A stretch of DNA of 35,233 nucleotides from a virus: positions 1 to 35,233 of IMG/VR virus record IMGVR_UViG_3300024518_000966, one strand, 5' to 3'. Shown piece by piece: positions 2,404 to 5,208 of the stretch. Position numbers and translations under genes: made by a program. The notes beneath the pieces were generated by a model, which saw only the letters and a list, made by a program, of their open reading frames with translations, made no database searches and was not told where the DNA came from. Every line of letters starts with the position of its first letter. Positions within the stretch are counted from its first letter, which is position 1.

Positions 2404-2796
2404 ATGTTTGATTTAATATTTAACTCACCATTATTTGATGGTGAGATTTTTGGTCTAATTGACAATGGAATTTTAGCATTGCTTGCATTGCTTGGAATTG
2501 ATCTTGATAAAAGACTCGGTGGTGATGGTGTTTACGGAGCATTATTTGGTGCTTTAATTGGGAATACACTAAGTGATTTTCTCGGAGCAATAAGTGACCC
2601 AATACTCAGAGAAAATGCTCTTGGTATTACCACTGGTTGTATCGAGATTTTAGTATTGGTCTATGTCGGTCTTTGCATCTACAATCGGTTCATCCGAGTT
2701 GATGATAAACTTGCGGGTCTGCCAGTGGTAGACGATGATGGAAAACAAGTAAGACCTACAGCCTTGTTTCCAAAAAATTATGACAAAAATAAATAA
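2404..2796 (+). CDS. Membrane protein, possible holin-like (130 aa)
   Basis: Three hydrophobic stretches are visible: residues about 18-32 (NGILALLALLGIDL), 42-62 (GVYGALFGALIGNTLSDFL) and 75-95 (TGCIEILVLVYVGLCIY). A hydrophilic tail with Asp and Lys follows. The size and two to three membrane segments would fit a holin or another phage inner-membrane protein, but no family is recognised. ATG 2404 is chosen because ATATGGAGG ends 7 bases before it; an in-frame ATG inside that site is probably not used. Hammerhead ribozyme 1 begins at the very base after the stop codon. Confidence 0.6.
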   Translation: MFDLIFNSPLFDGEIFGLIDNGILALLALLGIDLDKRLGGDGVYGALFGALIGNTLSDFLGAISDPILRENALGITTGCIEILVLVYVGLCIYNRFIRVDDKLAGLPVVDDDGKQVRPTALFPKNYDKNK

Positions 2797-2876
2797 ACTA
2801 ACTGATGAGACCTTGATAGGTCGAAAATTTAAAATAGGTATCAGTAATGACCTTACCCAGAAATGGGATTCTTAGT
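2797..2876 (+). ncRNA. Hammerhead ribozyme HHR1 (type I)
   Basis: The conserved core is complete: CTGATGA (2802-2808), stem II GACC/GGTC (2809-2812 with 2819-2822) with six-base loop TTGATA, and GAAA (2823-2826). Stem I is ACTAA (2797-2801) paired with TTAGT (2872-2876). Stem III is AATTT (2826-2830) with GGATT (2866-2870), including two G-U pairs. Inside it AGGT/ACCT (2836-2853) and CCCA, GAAA, TGGG (2856-2867) are possible branch hairpins; the second competes with the G-U pairs. The cleavage triplet is TTC, giving a predicted cut between 2871 and 2872. The 3' product would begin the mRNA of the gene at 3064. Confidence 0.8.
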
Positions 2877-3063
2877 GGAGGCATGAGAAAGCACGATTCT
2901 TGGGGATGCTAAGGTATTACCCAAGGTTAAAGAATGTCTCTAAGAGGCTCTGAGGCGGTCTGAGATTGCAATATTTTGCATTTTCGGACTGCTTTAGGAC
3001 TTCTTGGACATTTGGCTCTCTTATTGCCTCTGTAATATAAACCCATAATATGGAGAAAAAATT

Positions 3064-3291
3064 ATGGAACTAAACAAAGAAGAACTCAATGAAATAATTG
3101 GCAATGTTCAAATAAGTCTAAATAAGACTGGTGTAAACGCGCACTACTTGAAACCTATACTGAATAAAGATGGCTCAGTTAGGAAGAATAGCAGAGTCAC
3201 TTATGAAAGTATTGAAAAATCAAAAGTGAGATACGCTTTTTTAGAAGGTTTATTAACCAAGTTAAACAACTTGGCAAATGTCTATTACTAG
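3064..3291 (+). CDS. Unknown small phage protein (75 aa)
   Basis: I do not recognise this protein. It is basic and soluble, with no Cys and no membrane segment. Residues 1-20 (MELNKEELNEIIGNVQISLN) and 45-72 look helical. ATG 3064 follows ATATGGAG by 8 bases. Its leader (2877-3063) follows the predicted cut of hammerhead 1 and holds a small hairpin TGCAA, loop TATT, TTGCA near 2967-2980, but not the TGGGA fold seen at other genes. The second full-length structured leader starts 8 bases after its stop. Confidence 0.6.
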   Translation: MELNKEELNEIIGNVQISLNKTGVNAHYLKPILNKDGSVRKNSRVTYESIEKSKVRYAFLEGLLTKLNNLANVYY

Positions 3292-3298
3292 ACATTAG

Positions 3299-3402
3299 TT
3301 GATCTCTAATCCTGAGCATGATGAAAAAAGGCTCAATTCACCATGATCATATTCGTTCTGAGTGTGATCATTGGGAATTATCCCAACTCAAAATATGGAG
3401 GT
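3299..3402 (+). promoter_or_regulatory. Structured mRNA leader, copy 2
   Basis: This is a homologue of 1901-2002. It has TGAGC..GCTCA (3313-3335), ATGATCA/TGATCAT (3343-3349 with 3365-3371), and TGGGA, loop ATTA, TCCCA (3372-3385), then ATATGGAGG at 3393-3401. Against copy 1, three pairs of the middle stem change on both sides and pairing is kept (T-A to A-T, A-T to G-C, G-C to A-T). Confidence 0.7.
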
Positions 3403-3409
3403 AAATATT

Positions 3410-3985
3410 ATGAGAAAATTAAGTAAAGAAAAATTAGCTAAGTTAGATGAATTCACTAGGAATTTTAATGAATTCAAAAAGCTTTGGAAACTAATAGAGG
3501 AAAAAAAAGGACATCCTTTTAACTGGAATCGATGGAAGACACCATATCGTTTTGGTATAAAAAGTAGTTTAGGGGATGTTGATGAATTGTTAAGAAATAA
3601 GCTTGTAGAGTATTGTGATGGTCAGATATTAGATGTTGAATTGAAAGAGGCATATGATTCTGAAATTTTCCATTTCGACACCGATTATCCTTTAATCTTT
3701 GTAGCAAATAATCTTAATGGAGAAATAATTGGTGAGTGGATTGCCCCGCATCAGCATTATGATTATCCATCTTTTTGGACAGATGTCGATTGTTCTACTG
3801 GTGAAATAATAGGTTTAACAACACCACTGATAATATGTTCTATCAATCTTCCCGAAGAGTTCGAGGCTAATAGAAAACTAGGTTCGCTGTATAGCAATAT
3901 ATGGCTGTACTCTCGTGATCTTTATGAAGAAGAACCCGAAGATAGGTATGCTGTCTCTGAATATGCTGAAGGCGGTATAGGCTAA
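3410..3985 (+). CDS. Unknown phage protein (191 aa)
   Basis: No family is recognised. The N-terminal 45 residues are Lys-rich and helical (RKLSKEKLAKLDEFTRNFNE). The rest is a mixed, aromatic and acidic globular sequence with a His cluster (APHQHYDY, about residue 115-122) and an acidic end (DLYEEEPEDRY). ATG 3410 is preferred because ATATGGAGG ends 8 bases upstream; the frame continues to 3371 through the leader hairpin and is not likely to be translated there. Hammerhead ribozyme 2 starts five bases after the stop codon. Confidence 0.65.
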   Translation: MRKLSKEKLAKLDEFTRNFNEFKKLWKLIEEKKGHPFNWNRWKTPYRFGIKSSLGDVDELLRNKLVEYCDGQILDVELKEAYDSEIFHFDTDYPLIFVANNLNGEIIGEWIAPHQHYDYPSFWTDVDCSTGEIIGLTTPLIICSINLPEEFEANRKLGSLYSNIWLYSRDLYEEEPEDRYAVSEYAEGGIG

Positions 3986-3989
3986 TTAA

Positions 3990-4071
3990 ACCAACTGAAG
4001 AGTCTTTGAGATAAGACGAAAGAAATTAAAGAGGGGCATCCCTCGCCTTTGAGAAAAGGTTTTCTCTTGGT
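3990..4071 (+). ncRNA. Hammerhead ribozyme HHR2 (type I)
   Basis: This is the cleanest of the three. The core is CTGAAGA (3995-4001) with stem II GTCTT/AAGAC (4002-4006 with 4013-4017), six-base loop TGAGAT, and GAAA (4018-4021). Stem I is ACCAA (3990-3994) with TTGGT (4067-4071), 5 bp. Stem III is AGAAA (4021-4025) with TTTCT (4061-4065), 5 bp. Two branch hairpins lie inside stem III: GAGGG, GCAT, CCCTC (4031-4044) and CCTTT, GAGA, AAAGG (4046-4059). The cleavage triplet is CTC, giving a predicted cut between 4066 and 4067. A terminator-like hairpin starts six bases after the cut and moxR follows. Confidence 0.85.
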
Positions 4072-4072
4072 G

Positions 4073-4146: not shown

Positions 4147-5208
4147 ATGACACCAAGTCAAGCATTGTTGGCGTGTTATCACGTCATTAAAGGCGGTAAT
4201 TCGCCTTACCTTATCGGATCAGTCGGTATTGGGAAAAGTGCGGTTGGAAACCTACTTGCTCAAAGACTTGCTGATGAAGATAAACTTAAATTGGTTCGAG
4301 ATGTAATCAATCCAAATGAAAAGCAGTTTTCTGTCATAGACCTACGACTATCATTATTAGAGTCTCATGATCTAGGTGGACTGCCATTTTTGGATGCACA
4401 ATTTCGTCAGAAAAGAGCCTTTCTTGGAAACCTACCTGTAGGTGGAAAAGGATTGCTCATGCTAGATGAATTTGCACAGGCACATCAAAGTATCCAGACC
4501 ATTGCATCACAATTGCTTTATGAAAGACGCATTGGGGAATACAAACTCCCTGATGGCTGGAATATATTGTGCAGTAGCAACAGAATGTCTGATCGTGCTG
4601 GTGCTAATAAGATTCCTACTCAAACCATTGGTAGAGTTTCAATGATCGATTTCCAACACGATTTCGATGATTGGGAGGCGTGGGCAATTGAAAATGATGT
4701 ACTTGCCTCAGTTATCAGCTTTCTTTCATTTAGGAGAGATGGACTACTGGACTGGTCACCTAAGATTGATACTCCGCAAGCTACACCTAGAACATGGGTG
4801 AGGTTGTCGGATACTCTCAAGACAGGTATTCCTGATGATTTAAGAATAGAATTCTTTACGATGGATGTTGGACAGAAATGGGCAATTGAGTTTGATAAAT
4901 TTTTGCTACTATCTGAAGACCTTCCAAATATTGATGATATTTTGAAAAATCCGAGTAAGGCTGAACTGCCAAAAGGGGCGGGTCTAGATTATGCTGTTAC
5001 ATTAGCATTAATGACTACCATTGCCACAGCAAATAAGAAAAAAGTTTATGACTATTTTGATAGTGCTTTAACTTATTTGGAAAGGTATCGACAGGTCGAA
5101 TTTTCGATCTTGTTTGTCCGAATGGTAACTGCCAAAAGAAATGAACTCAGAGAGACTCAAACTTTCACTGAATTCTCAGTTAAGCACAGCGATATAACTA
5201 TCCTGTAG
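4147..5208 (+). CDS. MoxR-type AAA+ ATPase
   Basis: A 353-residue protein of the MoxR branch of AAA+ ATPases, which use ATP to remodel partner proteins and usually work with a vWA-domain protein. The Walker A motif is GSVGIGKS at residues 24-31, starting unusually close to the N-terminus. Walker B is GLLMLDEFAQA near residue 105, and the sensor 1-like LCSSNR is near 143. An AAA+ lid with TPRTWVRLSD is at about 217-226. ATG 4147 is supported by ATATGGAGG 8 bases upstream. It stands first in a three-gene set with an unknown protein (5434) and a metallopeptidase-vWA protein (6485). Hammerhead ribozyme 2 and a weak terminator precede it, and ribozyme 3 separates it from the next gene, so its dosage relative to its partners may be set at the RNA level. 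Function in the phage is unknown. Confidence 0.8.
   Translation: MTPSQALLACYHVIKGGNSPYLIGSVGIGKSAVGNLLAQRLADEDKLKLVRDVINPNEKQFSVIDLRLSLLESHDLGGLPFLDAQFRQKRAFLGNLPVGGKGLLMLDEFAQAHQSIQTIASQLLYERRIGEYKLPDGWNILCSSNRMSDRAGANKIPTQTIGRVSMIDFQHDFDDWEAWAIENDVLASVISFLSFRRDGLLDWSPKIDTPQATPRTWVRLSDTLKTGIPDDLRIEFFTMDVGQKWAIEFDKFLLLSEDLPNIDDILKNPSKAELPKGAGLDYAVTLALMTTIATANKKKVYDYFDSALTYLERYRQVEFSILFVRMVTAKRNELRETQTFTEFSVKHSDITIL

Follow-up and report, generated by a model that had tools for sequence, protein, structure and literature searches.

The window analyzed here, a complete IMG/VR record (35,233 bases), is a tailed-phage fragment whose phage genes encode a MoxR-type ATPase (phrog_1297), a phrog_1314 protein, a DnaG/twinkle-like primase-helicase and a protein of 3,057 aa. 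The ATPase and the primase share only about 30% identity with Schitoviridae (N4-like phages) and with a cyanophage, and close relatives of the phage were found neither by blastn against phages, nor by related-locus searches with the ATPase and the upstream gene described below, nor by a scan for the leader repeat. A run of small rightward genes (1649-1897, 2010-2291, 2404-2796, 3064-3291 and 3410-3985) leads to the ATPase gene, which begins at 4147. The third of them (2404-2796, plus strand, from the list of open reading frames) is the gene upstream of the element studied here; it encodes 130 aa, has no PHROG match and ends in a UAA stop codon at 2794-2796.

Several other structured segments were observed in this run. 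A leader element occurs in three copies (at about 1943-2002, 2335-2396 and 3341-3400) and consists of a hairpin, the arms of which vary yet stay complementary, followed by UGGGAAUUAUCCCAA (or UUAACCCAA), then AUGGAG and then the start codon; it is possibly a structured RNA or a phage promoter. Also, a CCUGAGCAUGAUG...GCUCA hairpin is found in the intergenic segments 1910-1936 and 3309-3335, just 5' of two of the leader elements. A long hairpin at 2932-3013, downstream of the hammerhead motif described below and upstream of gene 3064-3291, gives a sub-threshold match to mir-1290, which probably reflects its shape only.

Type I hammerhead motifs in the small-gene run

Directly after the stop codon of gene 2404-2796, motif search and covariance model both locate a type I hammerhead ribozyme (HHR) motif on the plus strand (2797-2876). 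It had been proposed in a sequence-only reading of this DNA, all coordinates of which proved exact, including the start of stem I on the first base after the gene (gap of 0 nt). Motif search places the strands of stem I at 2797-2801 (ACUAA) and 2872-2876 (UUAGU), which form 5 bp without a loop and are flanked by A before and GG after. The catalytic core CUGAUGA (2802-2808) and the GAAA core (2823-2826) are canonical, as claimed in that reading; its stem II GACC/GGUC is present as well, with a length of 5 bp rather than 4 (GACCU/AGGUC, 2809-2813/2818-2822), in a hairpin with a UGAU loop (2809-2822). The final A of GAAA, position 15.1, pairs with U2870 and is the first base of stem III, which comprises 5 bp including two G-U pairs between AAUUU (2826-2830, motif search and constrained fold) and GGAUU (2866-2870). 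Two branch hairpins are predicted within stem III by constrained folding, one at 2836-2853 and one at 2856-2867 (CCCA-GAAA-UGGG). Both G residues of the 3' strand compete with the second hairpin, the alternative pairing being 3 bp plus this hairpin. The strands of stems I and III thus lie where they had been assigned, together with a UUC cleavage triplet (UC at 2870-2871), and the hammerhead position rule predicts cleavage between C17 (2871) and U2872. With the conserved core CUGANGA ... GAAA ... UH and three helices of 5/5/5 bp in type I order, stem I being open, the sequence has the topology of a type I hammerhead. The core could also be fitted to a wider pairing, 2798-2903 (4/5/4 bp), but this alternative is weaker and was discarded. 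An outer 5-bp extension of stem I (UUAUG/CAUGA) was also spotted by eye.

A sister type I hammerhead, identified by motif search and covariance model at 3990-4071 on the same strand, has the same architecture, begins 4 nt past the stop of gene 3410-3985 and has its predicted cleavage site at 4066|4067. Alignment of the two copies, which had been suggested as a check for compensatory changes, revealed that 8 of the 15 base pairs are identical and that the remaining 7 are changed on both sides, all of them still paired. These two-sided changes affect all three stems: one falls in stem I (U-A to C-G), two in stem II (A-U to U-A, C-G to U-A) and four in stem III (A-U to G-C, U-A to A-U and, twice, U-G to A-U). 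The branching of stem III into two hairpins, earlier noted as a possible shared feature, is predicted in both copies by constrained folding. Both observations support the proposal that the copies are probably homologous.

Statistical support and predicted folding

Shuffling controls were used to estimate how often such motifs arise. Dinucleotide shuffling of the window (300 replicates) yielded 4 type I motifs at the looser stem lengths of 4/3/4 bp and none at 5/4/5, and shuffling only the DNA downstream of a fixed core regained stems I and III in 0.27% of trials. Pooling types I, II and III gave 18 motifs in the 300 shuffles (0.06 per window); the real window has them in three places. For the covariance scoring that the sequence-only reading had proposed, comparator phage hammerheads were gathered from IMG/VR by two core patterns, and a model (R1) was built from an alignment (A1) of 61 non-redundant phage type I HHRs, all from outside the window. 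Run on the window with filters off, this independent model scored 23.0 bits at 2796-2877 (E=2e-5) and 33.1 bits at the sister copy (3989-4072, E=6e-9), E-values that are rough owing to a shortened calibration; the next-best match reached 12.2 bits, and only the two copies had E<0.1. The alignment of the class is 99% paired with 270 two-sided cells, a count biased by the selection of its members for stems I and III.

Rfam, at its gathering scores, reports neither type I copy of the window. Sub-threshold matches to Hammerhead_3 (RF00008) were obtained at 23.1 and 26.0 bits, the former to be compared with a gathering score of 48.5, and since RF00008 describes a type III arrangement, only the core and stem II truly align with the window copies. 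These copies share the same catalytic core with RF00008 and with Hammerhead_1 (RF00163). Hammerheads of the phage type I class in 19 comparator loci, one of which has seven copies, also went unreported at gathering scores, so the Rfam cut-offs miss this class, at any rate in the scanned loci. The hammerhead of Agrobacterium phage OLIVR1, described below, likewise scores 31.4 bits against RF00163, under the cut-off of 34.

Thermodynamic predictions are less favorable. RNAfold prefers a fold other than the hammerhead for 2797-2876, with the core buried in a helix of 7 bp (2801-2807/2839-2845), and stem III of this copy is weak. The gap between the hammerhead fold and the ensemble amounts to 6.9-8.1 kcal/mol for the element alone and 8.4-9.6 kcal/mol with flanks, which is worse than in all 136 phage comparators put through the same test (maximum 4.5 kcal/mol without and 7.9 kcal/mol with flanks), RNAfold ignoring the non-canonical core pairs throughout; the sister copy has a gap of about 4.6 kcal/mol. 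Helices of this core-burying kind turn up in 9% of shuffles, and the one seen here may therefore be an accident. On these folding predictions, activity would be less certain for 2797-2876 than for 3990-4071. The element could accordingly be a decaying or slow descendant of an active ribozyme that mostly adopts the alternative fold, leaving only the sister active. Its fold gap, the largest of all copies examined, the buried core, the weak stem III and a model score below that of the sister (23.0 versus 33.1 bits) point in this direction. All core nucleotides are intact, however, and both open stems pair perfectly, where losses would be expected in a decayed ribozyme, and RNAfold is blind to co-transcriptional folding as well as to the non-canonical pairs, so that we regard decay as rather unlikely.

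The minimum-energy fold and the silence of Rfam are also what would be seen if 2797-2876 were a plain hairpin region of a 3' UTR that resembles a ribozyme by chance. Such a coincidence is hardly credible in view of the E-value from the independent model, the shuffle controls, the compensating changes in the sister copy and a location at a stop codon that is typical of the class.

Hammerheads and stop codons in phages

A locus in which two or three copies divide an operon, one of them abutting a stop codon, pointed to a rule that applies class-wide. Stop codons were located relative to 136 non-redundant type I HHRs of phages, from 86 records. The stop codon of the long upstream frame lies within stem I in 31 of the 136, directly before it in 17 and 1-5 nt before it in 11; in 18 further cases the UGA within the core CUGA itself serves as the stop, a subset that partly reflects tight packing, as one of the three possible phases forces any frame that enters the motif to end there. 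Counting exact offsets (in the core, or 0-6 nt), the stop overlaps or abuts stem I or the core in 49% of the hammerheads, versus 2.2% at random positions drawn from the same contigs. On the other side, the next ATG follows the cleavage site at a median distance of 25 nt. An A precedes stem I in 121/136, and in 94/136 this A is combined with AA after the stem, an arrangement that may provide a tertiary contact; the window copies have the A but GG in place of AA. Many records contain clusters of 2-7 copies, some with types I and III mixed. Three IMG/VR contigs (L120, L045 and L018) were observed to carry six to seven hammerheads each, all on the same strand.

The class extends to a cultured member of the Schitoviridae. 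Agrobacterium phage OLIVR1 (MT234338.1) has a type I hammerhead in its early region (3960-4009; 56.1 bits, E=5e-17), unannotated in the record. In model scans of other phages, cyanophage MinM2 gave merely a 15-bit hammerhead match and Pseudomonas phage inbricus none. The window copies resemble the IMG/VR class represented by the 61 model sequences, OLIVR1 included, in their type I topology, a stem I of 5-6 bp, a loop II that contains UGA, placement at a stop codon and occurrence in clusters. They differ from most of it in having branched stem III regions of about 40 nt and GG after stem I, instead of a simple-hairpin stem III, a GUC triplet and AA after stem I.

Hammerheads coupled to stop codons might serve many phages as a general signal at gene ends: the terminating ribosome would cover stem I and the core and so time self-cleavage to the end of translation, each gene block receiving its own mRNA with a hairpin at its 3' end. 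We offer this generalization tentatively and consider it doubtful as a whole. The literature search, weak evidence in that it barely covered subscription papers and bioRxiv, returned no description of the stop-codon rule or of hammerheads in N4-like phages. Phage-operon hammerheads have been known since 2011; the stop-codon rule is the part of these results that deserves follow-up, and a coupling between the end of translation and RNA cutting is directly testable.

Predicted processing of the operon transcript

Hammerhead cleavage leaves a 2',3'-cyclic phosphate and a 5'-OH end. We judge it likely that a small operon gene carries in its 3' UTR a type I hammerhead (2797-2876) by which the transcript cuts itself into gene blocks. 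In the polycistronic transcript, the element would fold once the ribosome has left the stop codon and would then cut itself at 2871|2872. The upstream mRNA would thereby acquire a 3' end made of the stem II/III hairpins and bearing a 2',3'-cyclic phosphate; a 5'-OH would mark the start of the downstream mRNA. Together with the cut at 4066|4067 in the sister copy, and perhaps another at 1549|1550 in a third candidate (1544-1631), this would leave one transcript in pieces about 1.2-1.3 kb long, the resulting blocks being genes 1649-2796, genes 3064-3985 and the ATPase gene from 4147 onward. The benefit may lie in end protection or in separate control of the pieces. In favor of this reading are the intact core and three stems, the independent model, the seven two-sided changes, the gene-end position throughout the class, the clusters, the short median distance to the next ATG, the OLIVR1 copy and the published active clusters; against it stand a fold gap beyond that of the comparators, the core-burying helix, the weak stem III and a GG where the class mostly has AA.

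A 2011 study described clustered hammerheads in (pro)phage operons, demonstrated their activity and proposed for them the role considered here, in which a polycistronic transcript processes itself into gene blocks (Perreault et al., PMC3088659); 2797-2876 adds to this group. Examples in that study include the ardA triple of Agrobacterium tumefaciens and an intergenic hammerhead of phage PaP3, and cleavage was demonstrated in vitro, with the A. tumefaciens triple also cleaving in E. coli (PMC3088659). Like these clusters, the window appears to combine hammerhead types in one operon, with the same core, flanking single genes or short blocks of phage genes. Its copies, in contrast to those clusters with their demonstrated activity, are predicted to be active, and they also differ in the long branched stem III, the UUC/CUC triplets and the stop abutting stem I. 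If the two type I copies acted as a pair, the RNA from 2872 to 4066 (about 1.2 kb) could be excised as a separate or circular RNA, given that one gene block is flanked by two copies and that hammerhead pairs of animals and plants are described as making RNA circles (PMC7229834). This is very improbable, considering that spliced or circular products of the bacterial clusters were looked for and none detected (Perreault et al., PMC3088659), that other phages have single copies or up to seven, which does not suit a pair framing one RNA, and that the block is ordinary coding sequence.

Processing into gene blocks may also involve the third element, at 1544-1631 on the plus strand, upstream of gene 1649-1897. 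It contains, in permuted order, the parts of a type III hammerhead: GUC, stem I AUAGUGA/UCACUAU, CUGAAGA, GAAA and stem III UGUGU/ACACA. Its stem II has only 2 contiguous bp (GU/AC), its fold gap is 10 kcal/mol and no hammerhead match was returned by Rfam at this place. A motif as strong was met once in 2,500 shuffled windows, and from its sequence the element appears somewhat more probably than otherwise to be a type III hammerhead, an unproven candidate. Stem III extends further, with CCUCCA (1538-1543) pairing to the Shine-Dalgarno sequence UGGAGG (1635-1640) of the first gene. As this CCUCCA partner lies upstream of the predicted cut at 1549|1550, cutting there might free that gene's ribosome-binding site.
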